From a virus, in IMG/VR virus record IMGVR_UViG_3300030107_000472, positions 1 to 31,436 of that record: DNA of 31,436 nucleotides, one strand, 5' to 3'. Made by a program: the position numbers and the translations under genes. This document shows, piece by piece, positions 5,111-28,389 of this stretch; the first letter of the stretch is position 1; every line of letters begins with the position of its first letter. The notes beneath the pieces were generated by a model that saw only the letters and a list, made by a program, of their open reading frames with translations, made no database searches and had not been told where the DNA came from.

Positions 5111-6594
5111 AGTTTATAACCTTTATATTCTTGTTTTGGTGATATGATATGTAGATGTTCCTTGGTTCGTGTTGCACCAACATAGAACAATCTATTCTCA
5201 TCGTCGGCATTCCTTTCATATGCCTTCATTGTGTTCTCACTTAAATCTGTTAACAACACAACGTTCTGTGATTCACCACCCTTTGCACCGTGTATGGTTG
5301 ACAAAGTTATTCGTGGTGGTTCGTTTAGTTTTTCTCCGTTCTTTCTCATCTTTCTTAAATAATTTACATCTCGACTTGGTGCATCATCAAATGCCTCAAA
5401 CCAAGGTGTATCTACTTTTAATCCATAGTCTTTCTTTAATGTGTCAATATTATAAGATCCGTCTTTCAACATACCTTTTAATTTATTTTTATCTGTATTA
5501 TCTTTCATGTAGCTATAGATTCGTTCTACTTCTTTGTATGCTAGTGGTTGACCTTTACGTAAGTTCTCCCAGTCCTGCGCTGCATAGTGTAATTCTTTTT
5601 CTTTAGTTCTTTTAAATTTATTTACATAGTATCTACCATCTCTATATAAACTTTCTTCTAAATCGTTTAACATGTATTTAGTTCTAGCTAACACTAACCA
5701 TTCACCGTTAGACATATCTATTTGTTCAAACTCATCGTATCTAGACAAAGACCCTTCATGCACCTTTGGTTTCCATGTCTTATCAATTCTGTTTCTAATT
5801 TTATTTATAATACCCATAGCAACATTGTGGACCTTTGCCGGTATTCTATGTGACTGTGTAAGTGGCATCATCAAACCTTTTTGTGCAATAAAAGAATCTA
5901 CATCTGCACCTGCCCACCTAAATATAGCTTGGTCATCATCACCCGCAATAAAAGAATCTTCTGTCTTACTCCATATAGTCTTAGCCATATCCCACTGCAT
6001 TAGTGATAGATCCTGTGCTTCATCTATAAACACAACATCAAAGTTTGGTGATTTATCTGATTTTATAAATTTTAAAATCATGTCATTAAAATCTATTAAA
6101 TTATATTCTTTTTTGTATCGTTCTATTTCGTTTGCAATAATACGTAGTTTATCTCTTTCAAGGTCACTGTTGTGTTCTGCTAAATCAAACTGTTGTTCTG
6201 CTGTAATGTTTCTAAGTTTTGCTAAATTAATTATTCTTAAATACTCACTATCAGATGTAAAAATACCACCATGGTCATCTTCAAACTTAGCATAGTTTAC
6301 AGGAAAACCTAGTTTTTTACCAAGATCAACGTAGTGTCTACGTTGCATCACATCTTCTTTTTTAATACCTAGCTTTCTAAAAGCTAGTGAGTGTAGTGTT
6401 CTAAAATATGGTAGGTCGTCTTCTGTAAGATTAAATTTTTTTATAGCTCTGTCTCTTGCTTCGTATGCAGCTTTCTGTGTGAAAGCAAAGTATCCAACTT
6501 TATCAGGATCTGTTTGTTTTAAATAGTCATCCACTTTATTTAACAAAGTTGTGGTCTTGCCCGTGCCTGGTGGTCCTAATACAATTGTTTTCAT
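5107..6594 (-). CDS. UvrD/PcrA-like superfamily 1 DNA helicase
   Basis: All core SF1A motifs are visible: Walker A GPPGTGKT (7-14), motif Ia FTQKAA (~38-43), Walker B/motif II DEAQD (191-195), motif III GDDDQAIFRWAGA (218-230), a motif IV-region SHRIP, motif V STIHGAKGGE (~430-440) and motif VI LFYVGATRTK near the C-terminus. It should unwind DNA 3'-5' using ATP, probably for replication or recombination. At 495 aa it is shorter than host UvrD (~720 aa), indicating reduced accessory subdomains. ATG 6594 overlaps the primase stop by one base (TAATG). No ring-type replicative helicase was seen in this window, so this enzyme may have a central replication role. Confidence 0.95.
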   Translation of the reverse strand: MKTIVLGPPGTGKTTTLLNKVDDYLKQTDPDKVGYFAFTQKAAYEARDRAIKKFNLTEDDLPYFRTLHSLAFRKLGIKKEDVMQRRHYVDLGKKLGFPVNYAKFEDDHGGIFTSDSEYLRIINLAKLRNITAEQQFDLAEHNSDLERDKLRIIANEIERYKKEYNLIDFNDMILKFIKSDKSPNFDVVFIDEAQDLSLMQWDMAKTIWSKTEDSFIAGDDDQAIFRWAGADVDSFIAQKGLMMPLTQSHRIPAKVHNVAMGIINKIRNRIDKTWKPKVHEGSLSRYDEFEQIDMSNGEWLVLARTKYMLNDLEESLYRDGRYYVNKFKRTKEKELHYAAQDWENLRKGQPLAYKEVERIYSYMKDNTDKNKLKGMLKDGSYNIDTLKKDYGLKVDTPWFEAFDDAPSRDVNYLRKMRKNGEKLNEPPRITLSTIHGAKGGESQNVVLLTDLSENTMKAYERNADDENRLFYVGATRTKEHLHIISPKQEYKGYKL

Positions 6595-8096
6595 TAATAC
6601 GGATCCTCTTCTTTTAATTGTTTTTGTTTATATTCATCTTGTTTCTTGTCAAACTCTTTTACAACAAATACAGATAGTTTCTCTTTTCCTAATCTTTTGT
6701 CCTCACATCCACATTTTTCTTTCAACATTTGTCCAGTCCTTTGATAGCCTACATCCCATCTACGTCTAATTAAAAATTGATGGTAGAACCTATCAAATAC
6801 AAAGTGATGACTGCCATCTGAAGTCCACACACCACCTTTTTTTAAATCATTTTTATCTGTAGATACCTGTCTGTTTAGACAAAACTCTTCTAAATGATTT
6901 TGTAACTGATCTTCTGTACGCATACCTTGTGCAGGTTCTGTAACCTCTGCATTGTTTAATAATAAATTTGTTATCAACACCCAATCTTTTTCTTTTAGTG
7001 TTGGTGGTCTAAATCTTAATTGTTTCATACATGCCTCTTGAAATAAACTTTGTTGTCTTAAGTATTTTACATTTTCTAAGTATAATCTTTCTCCGTCTAC
7101 GTTAAGGTAGTAGTAAGGGTCCTCCAAGTCTATTACCTGGAGGTCGGTTAGCCCAGGAAACATTATGTCCTGGCCTATGCCATACTTTCTAGTTCGACAT
7201 AAAGTTTTATCACACATACTACACATAGGTTGATCATTACATTTATATCCCCATTCTTTTTTATCATGTTGGTTTACAATTATCTGCACTTCTGTATCTG
7301 ACAATGGTTTCTCCATTGCAGTTGCATTAAATAATATTACTTTTGATTTCCACTCACTTGGCCATTTTTGTTTTGCATACACACCATAATGAAACAAGGC
7401 ATTGTTCCTACCACCCTCACCAATTTTATTCATGGCTAATACCTCTATACAAGGTGGTCCATCATCATATTCTGACTCAGGTCTTACAACCACTATACTT
7501 TCTACATCTAAAACTTTGTTTTTTTCATAAAGTTCATAAAAATCTTTTAGTGTAGCAACTCCACCCTGTTTATCAAAGGCATATCTTGTTGTATCGTCAC
7601 CAGAAAAGTATGGTAAATTTAAAAAATTTCCTGTATCATCTTTCGATTTTAATTCTGTTTGTTTTGGAAAAACTTCTGATCCACCATAACCCAACACAGC
7701 TTTTATTTCTGTAAGTTTATCTTGCATAGATTTTGCTGACACATAATCTGATGTAAATAAAAATACGTGTGCGCCACCAGATTTAGATCTAAATACTATT
7801 AGTGGTAATTTTAATTTATTTATTTTTTGAATTAATTGTTTGTGGTCAAATCCTGCATAAGAGTCTATATCTATACAACCCCATTTACATTTATTATCAT
7901 CATTTATAGGTATAACACCTAAACTTTCTGTGCCTTGTAAATGTTTTAACCATAACTCGTCTGTGATCGGTTCTCTTTTTACAAAAGACTTACCTTTTAT
8001 TTTGTTACCATCACCGTTTGATTCGCCAACTTTTGTGACACCATGAGCACGATCTAGTCCTTCAAATATGCTTTTAAATACTCTTATATTTTCCAT
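6594..8096 (-). CDS. Archaeo-eukaryotic-type (AEP) DNA primase
   Basis: The N-terminal domain shows AEP primase catalytic signatures: D76-x-D78 (CIDIDS), the S-K-S-G-G-A-H motif ending at H110, a downstream basic/aromatic segment (EVFPKQ, 141-146) and NFLNLPYF (157-164). It resembles the AEP branch found in TOTE-type and phage primases. A helical PriCT-like region follows (GGRNNALFHYGVYAK, ~228-242), then four cysteines (C286, C292, C295, C300) that could hold zinc or an Fe-S cluster. The C-terminal ~150 residues are charged and unassigned. There is no fused helicase. The ATG at 8096 lies 7 nt downstream of a hairpin terminator and has no Shine-Dalgarno site, so expression may be restrained. 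Confidence 0.88.
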   Translation of the reverse strand: MENIRVFKSIFEGLDRAHGVTKVGESNGDGNKIKGKSFVKREPITDELWLKHLQGTESLGVIPINDDNKCKWGCIDIDSYAGFDHKQLIQKINKLKLPLIVFRSKSGGAHVFLFTSDYVSAKSMQDKLTEIKAVLGYGGSEVFPKQTELKSKDDTGNFLNLPYFSGDDTTRYAFDKQGGVATLKDFYELYEKNKVLDVESIVVVRPESEYDDGPPCIEVLAMNKIGEGGRNNALFHYGVYAKQKWPSEWKSKVILFNATAMEKPLSDTEVQIIVNQHDKKEWGYKCNDQPMCSMCDKTLCRTRKYGIGQDIMFPGLTDLQVIDLEDPYYYLNVDGERLYLENVKYLRQQSLFQEACMKQLRFRPPTLKEKDWVLITNLLLNNAEVTEPAQGMRTEDQLQNHLEEFCLNRQVSTDKNDLKKGGVWTSDGSHHFVFDRFYHQFLIRRRWDVGYQRTGQMLKEKCGCEDKRLGKEKLSVFVVKEFDKKQDEYKQKQLKEEDPY

Positions 8097-9942: not shown

Positions 9943-11373
9943 ATGAATTATAAATTTAAATTAAAACCATATAAGCATCAGTTAACTGCTTTGGAAAAGT
10001 CTTGGAATAAAGAGACTTACGCATATTTTATGGAGATGGGTACAGGTAAAACAAAAGTATTAATAGATAATATGTCTATGCTTTACGACAAAGGTAAAAT
10101 AGACAGTGCCTTAATTATTGCACCAAAAGGTGTTGTTAAAACCTGGTATGAACAAGAGCTGCCAACACATCTACCTGATCACATAGAAAATGTGACAGTA
10201 TTATGGCAATCAAATATTAATAAAAAACAACAAGAAAAACTAGAAAGTTTGTTTGAAATAGAGACTGCTCTGCATATTTTAATTATGAATGTAGAAGCTT
10301 TGTCCACAGAAAAAGGTGTTAAGTTTGCACAAAAATTTATGAATTCTCATAAAACATTAATGGCCATAGATGAATCTACAACTATTAAAACACCAACAGC
10401 TAAACGAACAAAAAATATTATAGATTTAGGTGAGATGGCTAAGTATAGACGTATTATGACAGGGTCTCCTGTTACCAAAAATCCATTAGATTTATTTACA
10501 CAATGTTATTTTTTAGATCCATACTTATTGGACTTTGCATCATACTATGCTTTTAGAAATAGGTATGCAATTATGAAAACAATGAACGTTAGAGGTAGGT
10601 CTATACAAATAGTTCACAAATTTCAAAATCTTAACGAGCTATCAGACCTTGTTAAAAAATTTTCATACAGAGTATTGAAAGAAGATTGTTTAGATTTACC
10701 ACCAAAAAATTTTATTAAAAGACATATAACTCTTACACCAGATCAATTTAAAGTTTATCAACAAATGAAAAAAGAGGCTATATCAACTTTAAATGGTAAA
10801 GTGTCGTCTACAATGACAGTGCTTACACAACTAATGAGATTACATCAAATAACCTGTGGACATTTTACTGCGGATGATGGCACTACTCAATTATTACCAA
10901 ACAATAGAATTACAGAATTAATGAACATATTAGAAGAGACAGAAGGCAAAGCAATTATATGGGCTAATTATCAAAGAGATATCACTCAAATAATAGAACA
11001 CATTACAAAACAATATGGTCAAGGGTCCGTGGTTGATTATTATGGATTAACACCACAAGATGAAAGACAAGATAATATTCGTAAGTTTCAAAACGGCGAT
11101 GAGTGTAGGTTTTTGGTAGGTACACCACAAACAGGTGGGTATGGTATTACACTTACAAAAGCAAATACAGTTATTTATTATTCTAATGGTTATGATTTAG
11201 AAAAAAGATTACAATCAGAAGATAGAGCACACCGTATTGGTCAAAAGAAAAATGTAACTTACATAGATATTATATGTGAAGACACAGTTGATGAAAAAAT
11301 TGTAAAAGCTTTACGAGATAAAATTAACATAGCATCTGAAGTATTAGGTGAAGAATTAAAAGCTTGGATCTAA
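9943..11373 (+). CDS. SNF2-family DNA translocase/helicase
   Basis: The 476-aa product has a full SF2 core of the SNF2 type: a Q-like N-terminus (LKPYKHQLTAL), Walker A M32-G-T-G-K36-T, motif Ia IAPKGVVKTW, motif II D143-E-S-T (in place of DEAH), motif III M172-T-G-S, and the C-terminal RecA domain with motif V TGGYGITLTKA and motif VI Q424-SEDRAHRIGQ434. It should use ATP to move along double-stranded DNA or remodel DNA-protein complexes; such genes are common in marine phages beside replication genes. It is the only plus-strand gene. Its stop overlaps the endolysin stop by 4 nt (convergent). No clear Shine-Dalgarno site precedes ATG 9943. Confidence 0.93.
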   Translation: MNYKFKLKPYKHQLTALEKSWNKETYAYFMEMGTGKTKVLIDNMSMLYDKGKIDSALIIAPKGVVKTWYEQELPTHLPDHIENVTVLWQSNINKKQQEKLESLFEIETALHILIMNVEALSTEKGVKFAQKFMNSHKTLMAIDESTTIKTPTAKRTKNIIDLGEMAKYRRIMTGSPVTKNPLDLFTQCYFLDPYLLDFASYYAFRNRYAIMKTMNVRGRSIQIVHKFQNLNELSDLVKKFSYRVLKEDCLDLPPKNFIKRHITLTPDQFKVYQQMKKEAISTLNGKVSSTMTVLTQLMRLHQITCGHFTADDGTTQLLPNNRITELMNILEETEGKAIIWANYQRDITQIIEHITKQYGQGSVVDYYGLTPQDERQDNIRKFQNGDECRFLVGTPQTGGYGITLTKANTVIYYSNGYDLEKRLQSEDRAHRIGQKKNVTYIDIICEDTVDEKIVKALRDKINIASEVLGEELKAWI

Positions 11374-11847: not shown

Positions 11848-12024
11848 TTATTTCATGTAATTCATAAGTAAAGCTAGGATCATAGAACCCATGCCAGCTA
11901 CGATCATGTATTCTATTCTTCTAATACGTTCTTTCATTTCTTTTATTTGTTCGAACGTTTGCTTTTGCATTATTCTGCAAAGCTTTTCGTGTGCCTCTAT
12001 TTTTTGTAAAGCAGACCTTTTCAT
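11848..12024 (-). CDS. Small coiled-coil/membrane protein, holin- or XhlA-like (58 aa)
   Basis: ATG 12024 overlaps the stop of the large virion gene (TAATG) and has a GGAG site 6 nt upstream. Residues 1-38 form a charged helix with heptads (MKRSALQKIEAHEKLCR, QIKEMKERIRRIEY), followed by one membrane helix at ~40-56 (MIVAGMGSMILALLMNY). This layout, an N-terminal coiled coil plus a C-terminal membrane anchor in under 90 residues, matches XhlA-type haemolysin/holin-associated proteins. It is immediately followed by the endolysin, making a two-gene lysis cassette. Assignment is from topology and context, not from a catalytic motif. Confidence 0.8.
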   Translation of the reverse strand: MKRSALQKIEAHEKLCRIMQKQTFEQIKEMKERIRRIEYMIVAGMGSMILALLMNYMK

Positions 12025-15000
12025 TATGTTCTCCCCGCAATAACTTTTTCTTCAGGAGATAGTAATGCTTCCTCTGTTCGTGTCAAGTTAGTAATAGGGT
12101 TTTTTTGTTGCGTTACTGGAGGTATATTTGGCATTGGTGAAACAGGCATAGACGCTGTCGGTAGTGTAAATGTTGCACCTCTTTCTACCTCTAAATTAAC
12201 ATTAGGAAAAATATCATCTAAAGTTAATTTACTTAATCTTCTAATTATTCTATTTATTTCTCTAAGAGTAGTTCTATCAACTGGATTGTCATAATTGTTC
12301 TCTTCTGCGTTTCTTAAAAACGCCTCTATCTGACCTCTAGCTAAACCAAATGGTTTAAATTTATTTTTTTTAATCAAACCATAGTCTGCATCTAAACCTC
12401 TTCTATCAAATATAGTTGCAATTTCTTTATCAGAAAAACCTAAATCCTCCATAGCTTGAATATCTTTTTTCATGTCTTTCATAGCTTCAAAGAAAGTTGA
12501 ATTTCCTTTTATAATACCATCTATAATTTCTTGTGGTTTTCTATTTCCCTCTGGTCTTGGTATGAAAGCCCTACTTTTTCTTAATCTTCCATTATAGTCT
12601 GTTATTTTATAGTTCATAGATTTTGGTATATCCATTTTTATATTTCTAAAACCAAAAAATCCTGCTGCCTCACCTGCAAAACTTAAATCTCTTCCTGTAT
12701 CAGGATCTTCACCATATATAGCTGCTTGTCCTAATCTTTTTAATTGTTGAAAAGATAATGGTGCAAGTGCGTCAGCTAAATGTTTTAATCCACCAAACAT
12801 TTTGTTTCCTTCAAAATCTTCAGGGTTCCAAAGTTGTTTTCCTTCTTTAGTTCTACCGGCTCTTATAAATAAGTCAGATATAGCTTGTGTCCATATGGAC
12901 TCACTAATAAAAGGTTCCACAATTCTTCCAACACCTTTTCCAACACCATCCACTAAACCCTTCATTAATGGTTCTTCATCGAGACCTTCAACATTTGCAA
13001 TTACAGATTGCACAGGATTAATTACAGTATCGTAGGCAAAACCATGACTAAAATCTGTGTAGTATAAATTACCTTCTTTGTCTTTATTAGGCACAATTGT
13101 AGATTCTCTTGACCACTCTGGTAAAAATCTTCTCATACCGGATAGTTCATCTCTTGTAATACCATATAAACCTCTAAAACCCTCTACAACTGTTGGTGGT
13201 ATAATACTTACTGCTGTTCCAAAACCTATTAATCTTCTTGCACCAATACTTCTCAACGCTGGATCCTTTAATTCTCTAATACCTTGTTGAGTTATATTCA
13301 TGGATGTTCTAATTATTTCTGCAGGAAACGATACAAAGTTACCAAGAGGAGATCTACGCAAACCTTTTACAAAATCTGATACATACGCATAGTTTGGAAC
13401 TGTGTTTCTAACAATACTAGCTGCTCTTTTTGCAAGTTCTAAATCAGGAATAGCTCCTTTATACGCATTTTTTAAATTATCAAACTCTGCAAGATAATTA
13501 TATATCTTATAAAAATCATCCTCTGCAACGTATAAGTCTTGTGCTCCTCTAAAAACTTTATTCATTCTTCTACCTAATTTTCCAAAAACTCTATTAATAA
13601 CATCGCCTCCTTTTGATATATCTTTTAATAGTCCTTGCACGTCTTGAAAGGTAGAGCTAGAATTTACAACACCTTCATCTAATAAAAATTGATAAAAAGC
13701 CTGATCCTCTGGTAAATTTCTATACAATAATTGTGGTTGTATTGTATTAAAAGATTTTTTAAAATTTTGTAAAACAAAGGCAGGATTTTTAAATAAATTA
13801 CCAGTGCCTAAACTAAACGCAACGGCACTTGTAAAGTTACGCATGTGTGTAAATGGCCCTAAAACTGTTTTTGCAACTTGAGCAACTCCTTTTGGCATTG
13901 CTATGAGATATCTGTATATACCCTCTTTCATTAAATTATCAAAAGGCATAGACTCTGCAAACTTAATCGCTTCCTCAAACTCTGATGATGTAAATTTACC
14001 ATTCATTGGATTTGTATATATTTCTTCTCCTAGTGGTGATTTAATTTGCATGCCTCTTCTTCCCATTGTATACCCAGGTCTATTTGGTAAATTTAATTGT
14101 GCTTTAGTTGGACTATCAAAAACAATCTTACCGCTTTGAACTATTGTATTATAAAATTTATCTCTAGCTGTAACAGTTGCCATAGCTTGCATATTGTTAA
14201 CTATGGTTCGTCTTGCATCTTTTATTTCACCAAATAATTCTCTAAATGCTTTTAAATCTTGTTGTCCTGTAATTAAATCTCTTTTATCAAATTTATTTGT
14301 AGATATGGCTTTTGCTATATTTACTTCTTGAACAACACCATCATACAAAGCACTTTTACTTTCAAATTTAAACACCGGTGCTTTTGTTACTGGGTCCATT
14401 TTTACATTTTGAAGAACCCTATCAACATCTAATAAAGCATCTGTTTTTCCATAATTTTTAACTTTATTTGCTTTAGCATAATTTTGAAATATCTGTGCAA
14501 CAGCTTGTCTTTTTTCATCTGTTGGAACATAGTTTGTTGATTTAAATAATTTATTATTTTCAAATATTTTATAGTCATTAGATAATGTAGATTTTAATCT
14601 TTGACTAAAAAAATCTGTTAATTCATTTTTATTTTGTGTAGTAAGATTACCACCTTGTAGTAAATCTGTTTGCATTCTATTAAAAGCTTTTTTAGAATTT
14701 ATTAAACTACTGACTAGTTCATCTTGTTGTTTTTTACCAACTTTAATATTATTAAGAGATTTTCTAAAATCCTGTATTTTATTTTTTTTAAAACCTGTAA
14801 ATCTAAACTCGTTATTTATAATTTTATCATCTGCTGTTTTTAATAAGTCATCCATCTGTGTTAGTATAGCGTCTTTATTTTTTATTCTCTCTGCTGCGGG
14901 CATAGATTTATCAAATATAGTTTTAAAAGATTCATCTATGTCTTTCACTAAATCTTTTGCAACTATTGCTGCAGCTCCTTCTTGTCCTTCAACTCTCATT

Positions 15001-15821
15001 CCTGCTTCAAATAACTCTTGAGACTTTTTACTTCTAGGTCTAAATGGTGCTGCTATATATTTATCAACAAGTCTTTCAAATCTAGAATTACTATATGCTA
15101 ATTCTTTACCTTTTTTACCCACAATACCTGCTACCTTACCTGCACCATACGCAAAAGGAGCTATTGCAACACCCTCTATTAAAAATTTTCCTCTATTTTG
15201 TAACCTACGTAACGCCTCGTCTTCGGTATCATTTTTTTGATCTCTGTCTAAATCTGTACCTATATTAAAAGAGTCACCAAAAGTTCCTATATCTTCTACA
15301 TCATATATTAGTGAGGCCCCTACCGCACCACCTGTTGTAGTTGCAGCGAATCTACCAACACCTGCAGCTTTATTTAATTTAGCTGCTTGTTCTTTTGCTT
15401 TTTGTAAATTTTTACCCGTCTTACCTACTAATGATACTCTTTTACCTTTTTGTATAGCATTGATTGTTTTTGTTGCTATCTGTCCTGCTATTTTTGCACC
15501 TCTTGCAGCTGGTATACCAACTTGAACTAACGCCTCTGTTATTCTTCCAGCAGCTGTGTCTCTAGCTCTATCTTCTAGACCAGATAATACATCGCCCACA
15601 ACACTGTCATCTATAAATTTTTCTAAGTTAGCGACTGCACTATCACTTATAGGTACATCTTCACCTCTTGCAGCATCATATACTTCTGCTGCAACCGATG
15701 CTAAACCCACTGGTATTTTAATTAATCCAGAACCAATACCTGCTGCTATAGATACTGCTAAATTAGTTTCGTTATCTTTTTCTTCTTTATAAAGTTTATT
15801 TGGATCGAATGGAGATACCAT
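12024..15821 (-). CDS. Large virion protein, probable internal/ejection protein (1265 aa)
   Basis: This is the longest gene here. The N-terminus is short and polar, then hydrophobic/amphipathic (LAVSIAAGIGSGLIKIPVGL, ~21-40). Ala/Gly-rich segments follow near 150-190 and 210-235, then a long Lys/Asn/Phe-rich helical middle, a hydrophobic stretch near ~640-700, and a Pro-rich C-terminus (PTASMPVSPMPNIPP) ending in LTRTEEALLSPEEKVIAG. I recall this end, a P-rich linker then LTxTExALLSxEEK, in marine phage virion proteins. Size, amphipathic segments and position between other structural genes and lysis suit a T7 gp16-like internal protein that enters the cell with DNA. No lytic transglycosylase motif was found. 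AGGAG 5 nt before ATG 15821. Confidence 0.7.
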   Translation of the reverse strand: MVSPFDPNKLYKEEKDNETNLAVSIAAGIGSGLIKIPVGLASVAAEVYDAARGEDVPISDSAVANLEKFIDDSVVGDVLSGLEDRARDTAAGRITEALVQVGIPAARGAKIAGQIATKTINAIQKGKRVSLVGKTGKNLQKAKEQAAKLNKAAGVGRFAATTTGGAVGASLIYDVEDIGTFGDSFNIGTDLDRDQKNDTEDEALRRLQNRGKFLIEGVAIAPFAYGAGKVAGIVGKKGKELAYSNSRFERLVDKYIAAPFRPRSKKSQELFEAGMRVEGQEGAAAIVAKDLVKDIDESFKTIFDKSMPAAERIKNKDAILTQMDDLLKTADDKIINNEFRFTGFKKNKIQDFRKSLNNIKVGKKQQDELVSSLINSKKAFNRMQTDLLQGGNLTTQNKNELTDFFSQRLKSTLSNDYKIFENNKLFKSTNYVPTDEKRQAVAQIFQNYAKANKVKNYGKTDALLDVDRVLQNVKMDPVTKAPVFKFESKSALYDGVVQEVNIAKAISTNKFDKRDLITGQQDLKAFRELFGEIKDARRTIVNNMQAMATVTARDKFYNTIVQSGKIVFDSPTKAQLNLPNRPGYTMGRRGMQIKSPLGEEIYTNPMNGKFTSSEFEEAIKFAESMPFDNLMKEGIYRYLIAMPKGVAQVAKTVLGPFTHMRNFTSAVAFSLGTGNLFKNPAFVLQNFKKSFNTIQPQLLYRNLPEDQAFYQFLLDEGVVNSSSTFQDVQGLLKDISKGGDVINRVFGKLGRRMNKVFRGAQDLYVAEDDFYKIYNYLAEFDNLKNAYKGAIPDLELAKRAASIVRNTVPNYAYVSDFVKGLRRSPLGNFVSFPAEIIRTSMNITQQGIRELKDPALRSIGARRLIGFGTAVSIIPPTVVEGFRGLYGITRDELSGMRRFLPEWSRESTIVPNKDKEGNLYYTDFSHGFAYDTVINPVQSVIANVEGLDEEPLMKGLVDGVGKGVGRIVEPFISESIWTQAISDLFIRAGRTKEGKQLWNPEDFEGNKMFGGLKHLADALAPLSFQQLKRLGQAAIYGEDPDTGRDLSFAGEAAGFFGFRNIKMDIPKSMNYKITDYNGRLRKSRAFIPRPEGNRKPQEIIDGIIKGNSTFFEAMKDMKKDIQAMEDLGFSDKEIATIFDRRGLDADYGLIKKNKFKPFGLARGQIEAFLRNAEENNYDNPVDRTTLREINRIIRRLSKLTLDDIFPNVNLEVERGATFTLPTASMPVSPMPNIPPVTQQKNPITNLTRTEEALLSPEEKVIAGRT

Positions 15822-19945: not shown

Positions 19946-20109
19946 TAGTTTATGAAAAAATTAAAAGCTTCTAATTCTTCTTTTAATTCTTGTTGATAAG
20001 TTGTGTTTAGTTTTTGAATTACACCATCTAAATCTCTAGCTTGAGCCTCTGCTACAGTGTAGTCATATTCTTGTGCAGGTCTAGTTATAATCTGTGTAAT
20101 TTTTGCCAT
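19945..20109 (-). CDS. Small conserved helical protein (54 aa)
   Basis: ATG 20109 overlaps the stop of the tail tubular-like gene (TAATG), and the TAA at 19945-19947 overlaps the next ATG. The product begins MAKITQIITRPAQEYDYTVA and continues as a Gln/Glu-rich helix (ARDLDGVIQKLNTTYQQELK) ending EAFNFFIN. I recall near-identical small proteins at this position, next to the tail tubular-like gene, in uncultured marine phages. It has no signal peptide or membrane helix. A chaperone or tail assembly role would fit, but this is unsupported beyond synteny. Confidence 0.75.
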   Translation of the reverse strand: MAKITQIITRPAQEYDYTVAEAQARDLDGVIQKLNTTYQQELKEELEAFNFFIN

Positions 20110-22295
20110 TATCTTCTTCCATCGGGTTGTGTGTCTAATTTAAAGGTTCCTAACTTCCAACTTTGTTCAGCAGCCACATTTTCTATTTTTAAAGATATGG
20201 CTCTAGCTCTAGCTCTTGTATCTACCTTAGTCGTAGATGATGTGACATCAAAAGGGCCAAGAGGTGATCCTGTTTGACTGCTATTAGAATAATTTTTTAA
20301 TTGCAATGTAACTCTAGTGCTTCCTGTTTGTGATATAAAATCTGGTATAAATCTTCTTATCTTCATTATAAACTCACCATCTCCCCTAAACGTTGCAACA
20401 CCTGTTTGTTGACCTTGCGCGGTTCTTTGTGCTGTGATATCAAAATCTCCTGATTCAATGTTTGATGTTACGGCAGTTATAGTACCATTCTTATTTTGAT
20501 CAGTTCCAATCTCATGCTCATAGTACGCAGTTCGACCTTCAGTATTACCAACAACATCAAAAGATGTATCAGTTGAAGCATCATATTCTGTTGCGTGAGG
20601 TGTTCCAAAAACAGCGGAATCTCTCCACATAGTTCTTGCAAGTGATCCTACAGTCCATACTGGTCTTTGTGGTGACGAATCAAAATAATTATAAGTAACT
20701 TGTTTATTAATTACATCTGATGTAGCGGACGGGTAAAACCATATAACTTCACCAAAAAGATTATTTAAACCAGCGGATACCATTTGATTTCCTGATGCTA
20801 AATTTATGTCATCATAAACATGATCTTCTACCAAACACGGTAATGATTCTAATCTACCACCATATCTAAAGAAACCATTCTCTGACATCCAGTATGCAGC
20901 ACCATCAACTTCTACACATGCATTTTGTCCAACTAGTCCACAGTTAGTTCCAACCTGTGCAAACGCAAAAGTAAAAGGAGATCCGACAAAACGTTGTGTA
21001 AATAATGCCGTATCTGTCCAAACGTAAATCGCATCTCTACCTCTAATAGCTCCTCTGATCTGTGATCCGTCAGCTAGTCTTTGTGTACCGGCTGTATTAG
21101 TTGCTGTAGGTGTATAAGTGTTTATATCCTCTTGATCAGAAAATCTTATAAACATATCATCTTGTGTGCCAGTGTCACCTATAGTTGTTTCTGTTCCAAA
21201 GAATACTAAGTGACGATCTGGTGTAGACACTAACATGTGTCTTGATGCTGTAGGTGCTCCTGTGATAATCGAGGCTCTTGTTTCTGTTGCATTACCTAAA
21301 CTAGAGTCCCAAGAAAAAACAGCACTATCGTGTATCAAACAAATAGCTTTATCACCAAAATTATCTATAGACCACATACCTGGGTCTAAAGCTAAACCCT
21401 CCTGTGTTTGTTCATTCCACGCACCATAGTCTGTACCATTAGTAACAGTAACTCCATCACTGTGAGATGCAGCTGTAGTCCCTCTAGCACCTCGAGTTAC
21501 ACCCGTTAAAGTATTACCACTTATACCTGTGTATTGTATCATTTCTGTTCCAATTAAAACAAAACTAGTCCCCGTAGATGGAAACTGCACTGCGCTTGTT
21601 AAAACTATGGTTGTTGTGCTAGCATCTATTGCACCATTTAAAGTAGTTGTTACAGCTCCTGTATCTTCACCTCCATAAGAACCTAGACCCCAGCCATAAC
21701 CTTTTTCTTGAACAGCTGTGCCTACAGGATAGTAATGTTGCACTCTAATACCACCTGATGTTGTTGCACCAGATCCTGATTCATTTGATGGCATTGTAAT
21801 TGTTAAAGTTGTAGATGTTGGAATGGAAGTTACCATAAATTTTTTATCATCAAAATCAGATGCTCCAAAATTAGAATCAGTTATTGTAGTGAAATTATCT
21901 AATAATATAATATCGTTTTTATTAATGTTATGTGCAGTGCTAAACGTAATTGTAACAGACGCTGATCCGTTAGTTGTGCTAAATGCATTTGTAAGCGTTG
22001 TTGTAGTTTTAATTGGGTGTATATCATAAAAGACATCTCCAGAAAATGCGTATAGTATTCTATTAGTTCCAACTATAGCGTATCTTCTACCTGCGCTATT
22101 TACAAAATGATGTAATCCTCTAGCAGCTCCTGTCAATTCATTAGAATTTAATTGCCCTAATTGATTCCAACCCCCTATTTTTTCAGGAATACCATATCTA
22201 AACCTCACGTTATCACAGTTTATCCACTGACCTTCTGCTCCTGTGGGTGTAATCTGTTTGTTTATACCTGGTTGGAAACCTATCTTTTGTAACAT
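20109..22295 (-). CDS. Tail tubular/nozzle-like structural protein (728 aa)
   Basis: The N-terminus (MLQKIGFQPGINKQITPTGA, EGQWINCDNVRFRYGIPEKI, GGW) is the typical opening of podovirus tail nozzle or DNA-stabilisation proteins, where repeated W..G/P blades form a beta-propeller. Later blades carry W-containing turns (YGAWNEQTQEGLALDPGMWS, AIYVWTDTALFTQ, GAAYWMSENGFFRYGG, RPVWTVGSLARTMWRDS). An inserted Thr/Ser-rich region at ~95-280 looks like Ig-like strands. The length is close to T7 gp12-type proteins (~790 aa). It should form the tail tube tip for DNA ejection. ATG 22295 has a GGGG site 4 nt upstream. It lies next to the oxygenase cassette. Confidence 0.75.
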   Translation of the reverse strand: MLQKIGFQPGINKQITPTGAEGQWINCDNVRFRYGIPEKIGGWNQLGQLNSNELTGAARGLHHFVNSAGRRYAIVGTNRILYAFSGDVFYDIHPIKTTTTLTNAFSTTNGSASVTITFSTAHNINKNDIILLDNFTTITDSNFGASDFDDKKFMVTSIPTSTTLTITMPSNESGSGATTSGGIRVQHYYPVGTAVQEKGYGWGLGSYGGEDTGAVTTTLNGAIDASTTTIVLTSAVQFPSTGTSFVLIGTEMIQYTGISGNTLTGVTRGARGTTAASHSDGVTVTNGTDYGAWNEQTQEGLALDPGMWSIDNFGDKAICLIHDSAVFSWDSSLGNATETRASIITGAPTASRHMLVSTPDRHLVFFGTETTIGDTGTQDDMFIRFSDQEDINTYTPTATNTAGTQRLADGSQIRGAIRGRDAIYVWTDTALFTQRFVGSPFTFAFAQVGTNCGLVGQNACVEVDGAAYWMSENGFFRYGGRLESLPCLVEDHVYDDINLASGNQMVSAGLNNLFGEVIWFYPSATSDVINKQVTYNYFDSSPQRPVWTVGSLARTMWRDSAVFGTPHATEYDASTDTSFDVVGNTEGRTAYYEHEIGTDQNKNGTITAVTSNIESGDFDITAQRTAQGQQTGVATFRGDGEFIMKIRRFIPDFISQTGSTRVTLQLKNYSNSSQTGSPLGPFDVTSSTTKVDTRARARAISLKIENVAAEQSWKLGTFKLDTQPDGRR

Positions 22296-22331: not shown

Positions 22332-23603
22332 TTACTTTTTCCAGTCTATTATTAAATGAATTCTATCAATTTGTCCATTATTGATTACAGAATGAATTTT
22401 TTCAGTGTTCTTAATTTCCCAAAGTAGACCCTCTTTTAAATTTTTTGACTCACCTCCTACGGTAAATACAACATCCTCATTGGTTATAATTGGTAGGTGG
22501 TATCTAAGTGTTTCTTTTAAAGATTTACCATGATCCTGATGTGGTTTTATTTGACATTTTGAAAGTAGTTTAACTAGTATGGCTCTTACAATATGTCCAC
22601 TACCATGTTTAGCCAAAAGCTCTGATTCTATACTGCCCAAAATTTTAACAAATACACCATGGTGAGTTCCCTTATCTAATATCTCCTTATCAAAATCTTC
22701 ATTATATATAATAGGTATTGTTTGAGTTTCTGAGTGTACATCAAATGTGTCTTGTTTAAAGGTATATTTTTTCCAATCTTTTTCCATAAAAAATTTAACG
22801 TAATTTTTTATGTTTTCAAAATTACTTATCTTATTAATAAAATTAAAATTTTCTGTTTTTTCCCAGACTTGATCTAAATATTTATACTCTTCATAAGTAT
22901 CTCTCGGTATTATTTTATCATAATTAAAATTAATTTTTTTTATTTCACCTAATCTAATTTTATGTAAAGGAGCACCAACATGTTTATCGTCATATTCAAT
23001 TCCATTTAAATTTAACTGAGTTAGTTTATCTATGTCTAATTTAAAACTTTTTTGTCCACAAAACTCACTAATCTTATCTACTATTTCTTGTGGTTTTATA
23101 ACTAAGTCATCGTATTCTATTATTAATTTATCTATATCAGGATCTTGTAAAACAGTTCCCACAGATTGATAATCAAACCTTATCATTTGATTTGGATGCA
23201 TTACATGTTCCATGTCTTTATATGGACCTCCCATCTTATAAAAAGAACCTAATATTTCTTTAAAAGATCTTTTTAATAAAATAAATTTTATCTTTTGTGG
23301 TTTTATATATTTTTTTATTAATTCAAGATTTCCAAGTGTTCCCCATGGAGCTCTGTCTATTATAACATCTTCTTTCCAGTGTGAATAATATCTTTCTACT
23401 ATGTTATCTAAAATATTATCTATAGATATATTGTCTGGAAAATTTTTATGAAAACTACCTTTTTTAATATTATCTAAATTAAATAATATGTTAACTAAAT
23501 TGCTGTGGCCTGTTAGGGCTATATTCGGATGTTGCATAAACATTGATCCGAGAAGAGTATTACCAGATCTAGGTAGTCCCCCTAAAAAAATTAATTCTTT
23601 CAT
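22332..23603 (-). CDS. Sulfotransferase fused to aspartyl/asparaginyl beta-hydroxylase-like domain
   Basis: Residues 1-~250 look like a PAPS-dependent sulfotransferase: 5'-phosphosulfate loop GGLPRSGNT (8-16) and the 3'-phosphate site K111-R112-S113 with S120 (ILLKRSFKEILGS). Residues ~300-423 resemble the Asp/Arg_Hydrox 2-oxoglutarate oxygenase family: iron ligands H355-Q-D357 and H404, the conserved RYHLPI (367-372), TNEDVVF, and R414 ten residues after the distal His for 2-oxoglutarate binding. Both active sites look complete, so the protein could sulfate and hydroxylate. The substrate is unknown; tail proteins or host surface are candidates. ATG 23603 overlaps the previous stop (ATGA). 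The one-chain combination is unusual to me. Confidence 0.8.
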   Translation of the reverse strand: MKELIFLGGLPRSGNTLLGSMFMQHPNIALTGHSNLVNILFNLDNIKKGSFHKNFPDNISIDNILDNIVERYYSHWKEDVIIDRAPWGTLGNLELIKKYIKPQKIKFILLKRSFKEILGSFYKMGGPYKDMEHVMHPNQMIRFDYQSVGTVLQDPDIDKLIIEYDDLVIKPQEIVDKISEFCGQKSFKLDIDKLTQLNLNGIEYDDKHVGAPLHKIRLGEIKKINFNYDKIIPRDTYEEYKYLDQVWEKTENFNFINKISNFENIKNYVKFFMEKDWKKYTFKQDTFDVHSETQTIPIIYNEDFDKEILDKGTHHGVFVKILGSIESELLAKHGSGHIVRAILVKLLSKCQIKPHQDHGKSLKETLRYHLPIITNEDVVFTVGGESKNLKEGLLWEIKNTEKIHSVINNGQIDRIHLIIDWKK

Positions 23604-24160
23604 ATTAACAGTCTTCTCATTTCAGGTATGGGGTACTTTAAATTTTCATGATGTAAACTATAAATAAAAGATATTAACGTTAGTCTATCATCATCAGAAC
23701 CATCTGTATATTTTTGTGCAGCATGCAACTGTGATGCATCAAACAATAATAATCTGTTATACATAGATTCAATTATAATTGATTCTTTATAATCAGATCT
23801 TACTCCCTCCATTCTACAAATAGAAGTACCACATTTTTTATGATCACTTAAATATATAATAGCTGTAATTAAATTTGGGTCTGTATGTTTATTACCAACA
23901 TCTCTATCTTCTTTGTTTACTTTTTGAAAAAATTGAGTTGCTTTAAAAGTTATATTTTTAAAATCCATTGGATATAAAATTGATATTATTTTTGTAATAG
24001 AAGTATTAAACAAATCATAATTTATTTTATTTAATGATTCTGTTCTGACTCCAGGCCAGTTGTTGTTAGGATCTTTTTGGTAATTTAATTTTTTTGAATA
24101 TTCTACAATTTTATCTGGATCATCAAAAAAATTATCAACTATCGTTGTTGGATAAATCAT
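23600..24160 (-). CDS. 2-oxoglutarate/Fe(II) oxygenase-like protein, DUF6445-type (186 aa)
   Basis: The double-stranded beta-helix core shows an H92-x-D94 pair (KHTDPN), a strand TAIIYLSD, the distal H146 (LLFDASQLHAAQKY) and R159 (DDDRLTL) 13 residues later, the right order for iron and 2-oxoglutarate binding. The N-terminus (YPTTIVDNFFDDPDKIVEYS) matches the opening I know from DUF6445-like oxygenases. It should hydroxylate a protein or small molecule using oxygen; the substrate is not evident. ATGA overlaps join it to genes on both sides. The frame is very rich in A/T. Confidence 0.8.
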   Translation of the reverse strand: MIYPTTIVDNFFDDPDKIVEYSKKLNYQKDPNNNWPGVRTESLNKINYDLFNTSITKIISILYPMDFKNITFKATQFFQKVNKEDRDVGNKHTDPNLITAIIYLSDHKKCGTSICRMEGVRSDYKESIIIESMYNRLLLFDASQLHAAQKYTDGSDDDRLTLISFIYSLHHENLKYPIPEMRRLLI

Positions 24161-24807
24161 TGATTATAATAATTAGGTAAACCTAAAAAAGGTCTTTTAT
24201 CAAATTTATATTCTTCTCCAGAAGTTTTTATATTATTGTAATGTAGAAATACTTGACCACAAACCTCTCCTTCAAAAGTTTCTCTCCAATGTTCTAACAC
24301 ACACCCTGAATAAATTAACATATCTCCAGGTTCTAAATTTATTTTTATCCCTGGATTGTTACTGCTAGGTGTACAACCATCTACCCCTGAAATTCCTACA
24401 TTTTTATTTGGCTCTAAAAATATCGGCCAAGAATCTCCGCCTAAATTTAAAGTTGTAGATATCTCACAGCTCTCTCTATCTTTGTGTCTTTTTAATTCAT
24501 CTCCTTTTTTATAAAGTCTAGCATACGAATAAGTAGGAACTAAATCTAATTCAGTTTCTTTTTTTAATACTGGTAACATTTCTTCTAGTAAAACTTCCAT
24601 CGCTATGTCTGAATAATGTGAGTAGGTTTTAGGAACTTGAGGGTCATTAAACATGCCCCAGTCTTCTCTAAAAGGCGATATATATGAATTATCAAATAAA
24701 TATCTTGCTACCTTTCTTTTTAAAAGAAAGTATTTAAAAATAAAATCTGATTTTTCTTTTGAGATAGCGGATTTAACCACAGTATATTTTTTATCTTTAA
24801 AACTCAT
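24157..24807 (-). CDS. Prolyl 4-hydroxylase-like 2OG/Fe(II) oxygenase
   Basis: The conserved core reads SYARLYKKGDELKRHKDRE (H115-x-D117 counted from ATG 24828), ISTTLNLGGDSWPIFLE, LEPGDMLIYSGCVLEHWRE (distal H180) and GQVFLHYN. This is the phage 2OG family common in marine myo- and podoviruses. The usual Lys/Arg that binds the 2-oxoglutarate carboxylate, ~10-12 residues after the distal His, appears as Gln192, which I recall as normal for this family (HWRE...QVFLHYN). ATG 24807 is preferred because it trims overlap with the upstream gene and starts the domain cleanly; ATG 24828 is possible. The stop overlaps the next ATG (ATGA). Confidence 0.85.
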   Translation of the reverse strand: MSFKDKKYTVVKSAISKEKSDFIFKYFLLKRKVARYLFDNSYISPFREDWGMFNDPQVPKTYSHYSDIAMEVLLEEMLPVLKKETELDLVPTYSYARLYKKGDELKRHKDRESCEISTTLNLGGDSWPIFLEPNKNVGISGVDGCTPSSNNPGIKINLEPGDMLIYSGCVLEHWRETFEGEVCGQVFLHYNNIKTSGEEYKFDKRPFLGLPNYYNQ

Positions 24808-25276
24808 ATGATTCTTTTTTTCTTCCATTAAAAGCTAACGTAATTCTTGGTTCATCTGTATCACATTTTTTTACAGAATGTAAGTATTTTGAATCGAAAA
24901 CAACTATTTTACCAACTTGTGGTTTTATAATTTTATTAAAGTCTTTAAAAAAAGTTCCTGGTCCATAATTCGTTAAATACAAAATACCACTTGTATCGAC
25001 AAAGCGGTTAGTTAAAATAGAATCAAAATGATTGTGTTCCTCAACGTAATCATTTTTATTTAATATATTACCCCAAGCCTCGTATAAAACATATTGATTT
25101 AATAAATCTAAAACAGGTTTAAAATTTTTACTCTTTTTTACAAAGTGTTTCCAATAAGTTTTTTCTCCTCTAACATTACTCTTATAAGAGTATGATTCAT
25201 CTATGTTATCTTTAATTTCTTGTATTAAAGAATTTATGTAATTCTGATCTTTTATCCAATATTCTTTTAATAACAT
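24797..25276 (-). CDS. Putative 2OG/Fe(II) oxygenase (159 aa)
   Basis: The core has EEHNHFDS, in which H90-x-D92 (numbered from the upstream in-frame GTG at 25297) is the likely iron pair. A strand SGILYLTNYGPGTFF follows, then PQVGKIVVFDSKYLHSVKKC with distal H140, and EPRITLAFN with R151. The pattern fits the PF13759-like phage oxygenases. The ATG at 25276 is taken as start because it lies one base after the upstream TAA; the GTG at 25297 would overlap that gene. The protein is short, as usual for this family, and lacks other domains. Reaction: probable hydroxylation with 2-oxoglutarate; substrate unknown. Confidence 0.8.
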   Translation of the reverse strand: MLLKEYWIKDQNYINSLIQEIKDNIDESYSYKSNVRGEKTYWKHFVKKSKNFKPVLDLLNQYVLYEAWGNILNKNDYVEEHNHFDSILTNRFVDTSGILYLTNYGPGTFFKDFNKIIKPQVGKIVVFDSKYLHSVKKCDTDEPRITLAFNGRKKESYEF

Positions 25277-25277
25277 T

Positions 25278-25916
25278 TTATACGTAAGGCTTTCCACAAC
25301 ACCAAATAACTAAACTATACCTTGTTCCTTTAGTTACAGGAGAAACTTGATGCCAATTAAAAGAAGGAAAGACTATAACTGATCCTTTATTTTTAGCCTC
25401 TTTAGCTGTTAAAATATTATTTTTAATATCTGGATTACTTAAATCAAACATTAGATTACCACCTTCGTACTCATCTCCTTCTGTTAAATTTACCGTGACA
25501 GATAGCTTTCTTATTTTACCGTTTAAATTTTGATTTTTTTTATCTGTGTATATTTTATCCCATGAGTCTTGGTGCCAACCATAATATTGATTTAATTTAT
25601 ATTTTGTAAACTGACAACTCTCTGCCCAATCCCATTGAAAATTCCAACCTGAATTTACGTTTGCAGTTCTTATATAAGGAAAGATTTCATCATAAACCCA
25701 CTGGTCATTTATCCATGCTATGTTTGAATCTCTCTTTCTTTTTAAATCTTTCTTTTCTTCTTCTGTTAAATTTTTATATTCTTTTTTATCTGAACCTTCT
25801 ATGCCTCCTGTTAAAGCTATCTGTTCTTGTTTAAGATTTCCAAGTTTTATAATATCATCACAGACTTTTTCTGGTATTGCTCTATCAAAATACCAATAAT
25901 AATGTTCATAGTGCAT
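25278..25916 (-). CDS. PKHD/prolyl hydroxylase-type 2OG/Fe(II) oxygenase (212 aa)
   Basis: The catalytic features are complete: YGWHQDSWD (H115-x-D117), RKLSVTVNL, EGGNLMFDL, GSVIVFPSFNWHQVSPV (distal H189), and GTRYSLVIWCCG with R199 ten residues after the His. The pattern matches PKHD-type hydroxylases of marine phages, which may act on peptidyl prolines or small molecules. The N-terminal ~90 residues are charged and helical (TEEEKKDLKRKRDSNIAWIN), probably a substrate-facing part. It is the first gene of the five-domain oxygenase cassette, with only a weak AGAAAG ribosome site before ATG 25916. Confidence 0.9.
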   Translation of the reverse strand: MHYEHYYWYFDRAIPEKVCDDIIKLGNLKQEQIALTGGIEGSDKKEYKNLTEEEKKDLKRKRDSNIAWINDQWVYDEIFPYIRTANVNSGWNFQWDWAESCQFTKYKLNQYYGWHQDSWDKIYTDKKNQNLNGKIRKLSVTVNLTEGDEYEGGNLMFDLSNPDIKNNILTAKEAKNKGSVIVFPSFNWHQVSPVTKGTRYSLVIWCCGKPYV

Positions 25917-25938: not shown

Positions 25939-26349
25939 TTAAATACCTCTCATGTTTTTCCACGTATTTTCTTCTTGACTCCATCTCCAAGGACCTGGTT
26001 CACTTGGTACATCAACAGGTGGTTTCCATCTCCAATTTGTTTCATCCCACACCCAATTATCATGTTGTTTTGGTGGTATAAATTTATCAATTGATGAATC
26101 ATAAGTATATCCTGATCCAGCATATACTTGTCTAAAATTATTATTATAAGATGTTTGTTTCCAGTAAGTATCAGGGTAAGTTCCACCTAATTCTTCTTTT
26201 ATTAAAGGATCTTCAGGGGTATTGTTAGCAACCCAAGTTTCAGCTTCAGCAGATAGGTCTCCACCATTAGCATCAACATCTGAATTGTTGATTACAACAA
26301 CTCTTAAAACTGTATTGTCATCTGATTTAATTTCTGCAAAGTGTGCCAT
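25939..26349 (-). CDS. Tail-associated Trp-rich protein of marine phages (136 aa)
   Basis: The protein starts MAHFAEIKSDDNTVLRVVVI, has a YAGSGYTYDSSIDKFIPP centre and a Trp-rich C-terminus (DNWVWDETNWRWKPP, WRWSQEENTW). The MAHFAxI...VxRVIVI opening and the GxGYTYD...FxxPK...W.W.E pattern are, to my knowledge, widespread in marine myoviruses and podoviruses near tail-fibre genes. The role is unknown; beta-strands with aromatic patches suit a fibre tip or carbohydrate contact. An AGGAG site 9 nt upstream supports ATG 26349. It lies between the adhesin and the oxygenase cassette. Confidence 0.75.
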   Translation of the reverse strand: MAHFAEIKSDDNTVLRVVVINNSDVDANGGDLSAEAETWVANNTPEDPLIKEELGGTYPDTYWKQTSYNNNFRQVYAGSGYTYDSSIDKFIPPKQHDNWVWDETNWRWKPPVDVPSEPGPWRWSQEENTWKNMRGI

Positions 26350-26361
26350 AATTTAATTCTC

Positions 26362-27246
26362 CTACGTTGGCCATGTCCCTTCTTTTTCATATTTTACAAC
26401 ATCAGCCATTGACCAAACTCCTGAAGCTCCTGCTGCTTGTGCAGTTTCTTTAACTACAACAATTCCTGATCCACCTGCTCCTCCAGAATTTCCTGATGGA
26501 ATTGTGCAATTAGCTCCTCCTCCACCTTGTCCAGTATTAGCACTTCCCGCAGATCCGCCTCCACCTGCTGGATATTTTCCAGATATTCCACCAGTTGAAT
26601 AAGTTGTATTTGATGGGGATGCAGTTGGACTATTTACGTCTGAAGCAGTTCCTGTTCCTCCATTATTTGGATAAGCAGGTCCGTCTCCGCCTACAGCGCC
26701 AGCTCCTCCGCCACCGCCTCCAGCATAATGTGGAGCTCCGCCAGTAGTTCCACCTTGATTTCCTTCTGGTGGAGAATAACCTCCAGCGTTTCCTGTTCCC
26801 GAATTTTTTGGTGGGTTTCCTGGGTTTGATCCTCCATCTAGATTTCCTCTTCCACCTCCTGAACCTCCGTTCATGTCCGTTCCACCTGATTCTGCTCCTC
26901 CACCTTTACCACCAGCTGTTGAAGATATAGGTGTATCTGAGGCAAATGTAGAATTATTTCCTTTAGAAGCAGCACTACCTCCGGCACCGACCGTTACAGA
27001 AACTGATGATGCAGGGATTGGGTGATTTGTTAAAACTCGAAACCCGCCGGCTCCACCGCCCCCGCCGCCAGCCTCATTTGGCCCCGTCGGTCCGCCTCCA
27101 CCGCCTCCTGCTACTAATAAAACCGTAGCTGATTTTTGGTTTGATTGAGCTGTGAATGTGCCATTCGAAGTGAACGCAGTTAAATTTTCTGACGTTGCTG
27201 TTGAAGGTTCTATTACTGGTCCTATAATTCCGCCGTTAGATGGCAT
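26362..27246 (-). CDS. Glycine-rich tail adhesin-like protein (294 aa)
   Basis: After an N-terminal adaptor (MPSNGGIIGPVIEP, ~1-40) comes VLLVAGGGGGG, the standard opening of phage glycine-rich domains, then ~200 residues with Gly runs separated by short variable loops (GGGGGGAGG, GGKGGGAESGG, AGGGGGGAGAVGG, GGGGANCT). Such sequences can fold as packed polyglycine II helices, as in the gp38-type adhesin of phage S16, with variable loops binding the host receptor. The C-terminus (GASGVWSMADVVKYEKEGTW) is a compact cap. The Gly codons make this stretch locally GC-rich. AGGAGG 5 nt before ATG 27246. Receptor binding is inferred. Confidence 0.8.
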   Translation of the reverse strand: MPSNGGIIGPVIEPSTATSENLTAFTSNGTFTAQSNQKSATVLLVAGGGGGGPTGPNEAGGGGGGAGGFRVLTNHPIPASSVSVTVGAGGSAASKGNNSTFASDTPISSTAGGKGGGAESGGTDMNGGSGGGRGNLDGGSNPGNPPKNSGTGNAGGYSPPEGNQGGTTGGAPHYAGGGGGGAGAVGGDGPAYPNNGGTGTASDVNSPTASPSNTTYSTGGISGKYPAGGGGSAGSANTGQGGGGANCTIPSGNSGGAGGSGIVVVKETAQAAGASGVWSMADVVKYEKEGTWPT

Positions 27247-27648: not shown

Positions 27649-28389
27649 TTAACCGAAAACTAATGCCATTGCAATAGCTTTTCCTGTTGTTGCTAATCCG
27701 CTACCATTTGCTTGGACTTGACCTGTCCCTTTTGGCACTAAATTAATGTTTATATTACTATCTCCTCCTGAAGCCGTAAATGATGGTGCATTTCCAGTAG
27801 CTGCGTTAGCGTAAGTTAATTCATTAACTGCTGAACTTGTTGCTGTTAATAAAAATAACTCATTGCCATTTGTATCTAAAATTGAAGTTCCAATTTTAGG
27901 AGAAGTCAGTGTTTTATTTGTAAGTGTTTGTGTTCCTGTTAAAGTTACGTCCCCAGCAGGTAATGTATCAATATCAGGATTAGTTCCGTCATTTGCAGTT
28001 GCAAATACTAGGGCATCACCTTTATTATCTGCTGCAAAAGTAAATGAGTCTCCTGAACCACTTGCATATTTAAATTGAACTGTATGTGATCCAGATGTTG
28101 AATTTCTTAAAAAGTAAAAAGTTTGAACATCTAAAGGTATTGTTACAATTTGATTACCTGAAATTGTACCTGTAAACTCAATCATTCTATGTGCAAGTTC
28201 TGCACCAGTTGACCCATCAGAAACTGCTAATGCGGTTGTTTGAGCTCCACCTGCTATTGATTTAGCAATGTACCCACCAGATATTTGTTCAATAATTTGT
28301 AAATTAGTATTAGTTTTTGTACCCCATGTACCGGCGTTTTCACCAGTTGCTTGAAGTTCGACTCCTAGTCCTGTAAATGTTGATGCCAT
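27649..28389 (-). CDS. Tail fibre-like protein (246 aa)
   Basis: The N-terminus has the sequence ELQATGENAGTWGTKTNTNL, typical of marine phage fibre proteins that attach through a conserved N-terminal domain. The central part is beta-rich (TGTISGNQIVTIPL, TFYFLRNSTSGSHTVQFKYA), and GTQTLTNKTLTSPKI (~155-170) is the repeat element common in marine phage fibres. The C-terminal segment (NINLVPKGTGQVQANG) also matches fibre proteins I know. It should trimerise and take part in host contact. AGGAG before ATG 28389. Confidence in fibre class is good; receptor unknown. Confidence 0.8.
   Translation of the reverse strand: MASTFTGLGVELQATGENAGTWGTKTNTNLQIIEQISGGYIAKSIAGGAQTTALAVSDGSTGAELAHRMIEFTGTISGNQIVTIPLDVQTFYFLRNSTSGSHTVQFKYASGSGDSFTFAADNKGDALVFATANDGTNPDIDTLPAGDVTLTGTQTLTNKTLTSPKIGTSILDTNGNELFLLTATSSAVNELTYANAATGNAPSFTASGGDSNININLVPKGTGQVQANGSGLATTGKAIAMALVFG

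Follow-up and report, generated by a model that had tools for sequence, protein, structure and literature searches.

Few unexplained genes are commoner in ocean phages than stacked 2OG oxygenases, which were earlier read as serving nitrogen or iron metabolism. Oxygenase stacks beside tail genes are already known in HTVC023P-type pelagiphages, for which eight nonorthologous oxygenases are described (Wittmers 2022, PMC9599517), and in cyanophages, for which up to 24 such genes per phage are reported. The initial annotation of the locus treated here took a stacked set to be more unusual than it is; clusters as such are known, from the cyanophages and, together with 'ferrochelatases', from the pelagiphages. 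The sulfotransferase fusion is new.

The window is the whole of a virus contig of 31,436 bases (IMG/VR record IMGVR_UViG_3300030107_000472). Phage records searched at the nucleotide level contain no relatives of the window; via the stabilization gene K, its closest cultured relatives are HTVC023P-type pelagiphages, and the identity of K to HTVC023P, HTVC027P, and 023Pt_psg01 is 44–47%. The host of this marine phage is probably the very abundant SAR11 bacteria. On the minus strand, the Gly-rich G and the Trp-rich F are followed by five enzyme ORFs at 22332–25916 (Table 1), overlapping or nearly so, and the series ends at K. The cassette comprises four free-standing 2OG/Fe(II)-type oxygenases (B, C, D, and E) and a sulfotransferase–AspH fusion (A). 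Four oxygenases and a fused sulfotransferase/Asp-hydroxylase in one coupled run had been proposed from the sequence, and the ORFs, the Pfam and PHROG matches, and the fold of C agree with this. The flanking gene previously called tail tubular-like is instead K, a gp10-like protein matching phrog_3287 and 'phage stabilization protein' records. Homologues place the probable start of C at MSFK (24807) and that of D at MLLKEYW (25276); the residue numbers of C (H115/D117/H180) count from a longer ORF running to 24828, and those of D (H90/D92/H140/R151) from a GTG-started ORF running to 25297.

Table 1. Cassette genes and neighbouring features of the tail module, in window coordinates.
Feature	Coordinates	Strand	Assignment	Residues or remarks
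A	22332..23603	-	Sulfotransferase (~residues 1-230) + AspH-type 2OG oxygenase (~250-423)	
B	23600..24160	-	DUF6445 / 2OG-FeII_Oxy_3-like oxygenase	H92/D94/H146/R159
C	24157..24807	-	Prolyl-hydroxylase-fold oxygenase (modelled), database label 'ferrochelatase' (phrog_2954)	
D	24797..25276	-	2OG-FeII_Oxy_5 / TIGR02466-like oxygenase	H90/D92/H140/R151
E	25278..25916	-	PKHD/YbiX-like 2OG-FeII_Oxy_3 oxygenase	H115/D117/H189/R199
F	25939..26349	-	Small Trp-rich protein (phrog_7759)	In many phages, regularly found beside Gly-rich tail proteins
G	26362..27246	-	Gly-rich (Gly_rich_2) adhesin-type protein	Rich in Pro in phages with cassettes; candidate substrate
K	20109..22295	-	gp10-like stabilization/virion structural protein (phrog_3287)	Fixed right border of slot
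I	27649..28389	-	Tail-module protein (phrog_31104)	Fixed left border of slot

The GC content of the cassette is 24–30%, against 35–49% in most flanking genes, so that the AT-rich block noticed initially does exist relative to most flanks. However, the third-position GC is 0.13–0.18 in the cassette and 0.12–0.20 in the flanks; because the two are the same, the AT-richness does not indicate foreign codon usage. It is amino-acid driven, and a foreign origin deduced from AT content is ruled out. All cassette genes are under purifying selection (dN/dS 0.04–0.19). Elsewhere in the window, a 1265-aa ORF (12024–15821) with no Pfam or PHROG match adjoins likely ejection and tail genes, an SNF2-type helicase gene (9943–11373) is situated on the plus strand, in contrast to the minus-strand location of the other annotated large genes, and a primase (6594–8096) is akin to the AEP primase of TOTE conflict systems (PF22548, 2.5e-15).

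All five oxygenase domains contain the HxD...H iron triad, with the residues at exactly the positions given in the initial annotation. In Pfam, A matches Asp_Arg_Hydrox (3e-13) and Sulfotransfer_3 (6.5e-9), D matches 2OG-FeII_Oxy_5 (1.4e-11), E matches 2OG-FeII_Oxy_3 (9e-15), and B matches DUF6445 (4.5e-10) and, weakly, 2OG-FeII_Oxy_3. The iron residues are invariant in the alignments of A and C, the latter with 34 sequences. An Arg situated 10–13 residues past the distal His, as expected for 2OG binding, exists in A, B, D, and E and is absent in C. The double-stranded beta-helix fold is indicated by PDB matches in C, and by Pfam profiles only in A, B, D, and E (weakly in B); the modelled AspH domain of A is of low confidence. 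The oxygenase domain of A (H355/D357/H404/R414) matches the Asp/Asn beta-hydroxylase family significantly (PF05118, 50.3 bits against a curated cutoff of 22.6), with the conserved His, Asp, His, and Arg, but differs by its fusion to a sulfotransferase and by keeping the Asp of the HxD motif. Human AspH lacks this Asp. Separately, the label 'DNA endonuclease V' of phrog_274 conflicts with its matches to clear 2OG oxygenases (D, 24797–25297, and L155:1757–2308), and the 'DNA endonuclease' products that S-CAM8 and 023Pt_psg01 have within their oxygenase runs are likewise probably mislabelled.

C matches phrog_2954 'ferrochelatase' at 7.5e-49, and this family, so named in databases, has matches in 156 phage records; its ORF (24157–24828) has no Pfam match. 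The AlphaFold2 model, generated from the 34-sequence alignment of viral-contig loci, has a pLDDT of 90.5. In the PDB, the model matches first a Pseudomonas prolyl-4-hydroxylase and the Dictyostelium prolyl hydroxylase, and human PHD2 is also among the matches; no ferrochelatase appears in the PDB profile search or among the 50 fold matches listed. According to the model, C is a prolyl-hydroxylase-type oxygenase fold with an HxD...H site, which bears out the iron site initially read from the sequence for this gene. A ferrochelatase function of C is ruled out by the fold and the PDB profile search. H115, D117, and H180 are invariant across the 34 sequences, but the usual 2OG-binding Arg is missing, so 2OG as the co-substrate of C is only putative. 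The 'ferrochelatase' label underlies the published iron/heme partner argument (Wittmers 2022, PMC9599517), and this argument falls because C has the oxygenase fold and the HxD...H site.

The sulfotransferase domain of A is closest to the tyrosylprotein sulfotransferases TPST1/TPST2, which rank first by sequence (E 7e-6) and constitute the top 13 structural matches (E from 3e-7), at ~15–21% identity in the latter. The R12-G14-T16 loop corresponds to the 5'-phosphosulfate and R112/S120 to the 3'-phosphate-binding part of the PAPS site, R112 and S120 being kept in 48 of 49 relatives. The position of the TPST catalytic Glu aligns with H33 in A and is H, N, T, E, or L among relatives; since this Glu is unconserved, the domain is classed as TPST-like and not as a proven member, and tyrosine sulfation is putative.

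The fusion also exists in further phage groups, with identity down to ~33%, and other phages contain the sulfotransferase and AspH as separate neighbouring genes. On cellular contigs, a 607-aa AspH–sulfotransferase fusion from a Proteobacteria MAG (L126) holds the same two domains in reverse order, and the two genes are adjacent in Mucilaginibacter (L130, L131). These fused or adjacent arrangements support a functional coupling, although the count of pairings is biased because the loci were collected with the fusion itself as the query. An obligatory pairing is weakened, since both domains also occur apart: AspH is often found without a sulfotransferase in phages (L158–L198), and sulfotransferases in loci from other queries either have a different oxygenase as partner or stand without one. 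For the Woeseiaceae/Colwellia-type AspH proteins (L103, L106, L113), a putative N-terminal sulfotransferase domain gives sub-threshold Pfam matches only.

Across relatives gathered with the stabilization protein, not an oxygenase, as the query, the slot bounded by the tail gene and the stabilization gene forms a hotspot for enzyme genes. Oxygenases are held by 28 of 32 complete I–K intervals, commonly four and up to nine, and the 32 intervals display 31 different gene orders, with E and C both present in 27 as a near-constant core. Halogenases occur in six and carbamoyltransferases in three intervals (nine together). Among the 145 genes lying between F and K, 127 encode an oxygenase, a halogenase, or a carbamoyltransferase, and other loci have sulfotransferases in this slot, in some cases accompanied by an APS-kinase-like gene; the slot does not look like a general cargo hotspot. 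The co-occurrence anticipated by the initial annotation is found in related genomes: six IMG/VR loci have all five domains in an identical order, and many more have partial sets.

Furthermore, the adhesin and the enzymes are swapped between otherwise near-identical phages. In L008, genes N, O, and K are 98–100% identical to those of the window, but G, F, E, D, C, and A are only 64–80% identical and B is missing; adhesin-type genes and enzymes have diverged jointly, the pattern that exchange as a unit would produce. L003 is the reverse case, with 97–99% identity from F to A and 77% in K. Two other features deserve mention. In the same slot, L147:7501–8019 and its relatives (U147), a small family, contain the HxD motif apparently without the distal iron-binding His, and are possibly a degenerate oxygenase-like partner. 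Flavin-dependent tryptophan halogenases are situated inside oxygenase cassettes (L150:1718–3265, L144:1411–2592); the L150 cassette also holds the Trp-rich F, so that F as a halogenase substrate is worth considering.

F homologues adjoin Gly-rich tail genes in many phages. Among the slots with F, 21 hold oxygenases and none lacks them; among those without F, seven hold oxygenases and four lack them (Fisher p 0.009). In some phages, a compact unit is formed by the Gly-rich gene, an ~84-aa gene, one oxygenase, and F; in two loci, a sulfotransferase and an APS-kinase-like gene replace the oxygenase between the Gly-rich gene and F. F as an obligatory substrate is weakened: 37 of 80 F loci, some of them on short contigs, have no oxygenase within 4 kb, so that F needs no such enzyme, and its composition hardly differs, with no difference in proline between cassette and other phages. 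Gly-rich adhesins beside cassettes, however, are three times richer in proline, which constitutes 6.8% of the Gly-rich region beside cassettes, 3.0% beside one oxygenase, and 2.2% without, in a comparison across different phage lineages. AT-rich genomes would predict less, not more, proline. Within cassette phages, adhesin proline shows no further rise with enzyme number, and the enrichment is suggestive only as a sign of the substrate.

HTVC023P-type pelagiphages may have, in their tail module, an exchangeable island of enzymes that decorate tail adhesins chemically, and the five genes would be one of its versions; this is a tentative reading to which we give somewhat less than an even chance. 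From the observed genes, folds, active-site residues, purifying selection, synteny, and exchange, we infer the following substrates, products, reaction order, benefit, and division of work among the five enzymes. Expressed late, the enzymes would decorate the adjacent tail adhesins: the Pro-/Gly-rich G in the first place, and the Trp-rich F perhaps as well. Side-chain hydroxylation, most likely of proline, would fall to C, E, B, and D, and the AspH domain of A would also hydroxylate; the TPST-like domain of A would transfer sulfate from PAPS to a hydroxyl group, either of tyrosine or newly made. Swapping of enzymes would alter the chemistry of the receptor-binding surface. The modification of virion proteins suggested initially fits the TPST-like domain, the constant adhesin-gene neighbourhood, the joint exchange, and the adhesin proline, while its substrates and products stay conditional. 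A literature search on phage tail-fibre hydroxylation found nothing relevant.

The sulfate donor bears on this reading. The APS-kinase-like gene, with kinases among its relatives, is located beside or near a sulfotransferase in every viral locus in which it was found. SAR11 is without assimilatory sulfate reduction, but HTCC1062 has AprBA, able to make APS from sulfite; cysC and cysQ are listed in several strains in Table 3 of the same paper, whereas its text gives cysDNCHIJ as absent (PMC5069961). PAPS supply in a SAR11 host is plausible but unproven. In L189:9369–10220, a P-loop APS-kinase-like domain is fused to an NMNAT-like nucleotidyltransferase near two sulfotransferases, possibly for donor synthesis; in L150, L153, L155, and L315, neighbouring genes encode them separately. 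The nucleotidyltransferase gene (CTP) was considered as an ATP sulfurylase, and its nearest relatives are NMN adenylyltransferases. A broader proposal, which we regard as possible but doubtful, is that in marine phages a swapped combinatorial island hydroxylates and then sulfates, halogenates, or carbamoylates the phage's own Gly/Pro-rich tail adhesins, with PAPS from SAR11 AprBA/CysC or the phage APS-kinase-like enzyme, generating chemical receptor-binding diversity above sequence diversity.

Instead of adhesins, the enzymes could modify the host surface (envelope glycans or surface proteins), for example against superinfection, with the tail operon providing late expression only. Glycans could be the target of the carbamoyltransferases and glycosyltransferases that relatives have in this region, and the Nod-factor sulfotransferase NoeE is a weak NCBIfam match for the fusion; yet the sulfotransferase is closest to protein-tyrosine sulfotransferases, the enzymes and the adhesin are exchanged together, and the slot stays beside adhesin genes in unrelated phages, so that this reading is unlikely. 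That the island serves the biosynthesis of a small molecule or a short peptide is improbable: the mix of halogenase, carbamoyltransferase, sulfotransferase, and oxygenase resembles natural-product tailoring, but no scaffold-making enzyme (NRPS, PKS, or lanthipeptide-type) is recognised in the slot, and those 127 F-to-K genes are tailoring enzymes only. Less probable again is auxiliary metabolism, put forward by Sullivan 2010 and discussed for pelagiphages by Wittmers 2022 (PMC9599517), in which the oxygenases draw down or sense 2-oxoglutarate and, with the 'ferrochelatase', alter host nitrogen or iron/heme metabolism. The 'ferrochelatase' has the oxygenase fold, and one enzyme would be enough for the draw-down, whereas up to nine different oxygenases in 31 orders point to different substrates. 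Hypermodification of phage DNA is highly improbable, for although such genes exist in HTVC023P-type phages (Wittmers 2022, PMC9599517), none of the five matches Tet/JBP-type DNA oxygenase families in Pfam and the cassette sits in the tail module.

The adhesin-linked slot, the exchange, the TPST-like fusion, and the false 'ferrochelatase' label thus point to protein modification, with concrete proteins named. If adhesin decoration is true, phages of the ocean's most abundant bacteria chemically alter their attachment proteins, which would bear on host recognition.

Compared with known systems, the cassette resembles that of the HTVC023P-type pelagiphages, in which the C and E homologues are close together as in the window; that description treats C as a ferrochelatase and mentions no sulfotransferase (Wittmers 2022, PMC9599517), whereas C here has the modelled oxygenase fold. 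In the cultured P-RSM4, S-CAM8, and HTVC008M, E and C are situated in the T4-like tail region near an F homologue, together with more oxygenases, and in P-RSM4 and S-CAM8 the cluster also contains a carbamoyltransferase, but the stretches seen contain no sulfotransferase–AspH fusion. Sulfotransferase genes are present in the phages S-SKS1 and S-SRM01. TPST1/TPST2, the best matches of the sulfotransferase domain, differ from A in that A is fused to an oxygenase. What the present locus adds to these systems is the sulfotransferase–AspH fusion, the revised identification of C, the view across the whole slot, and the connection with the adhesin.
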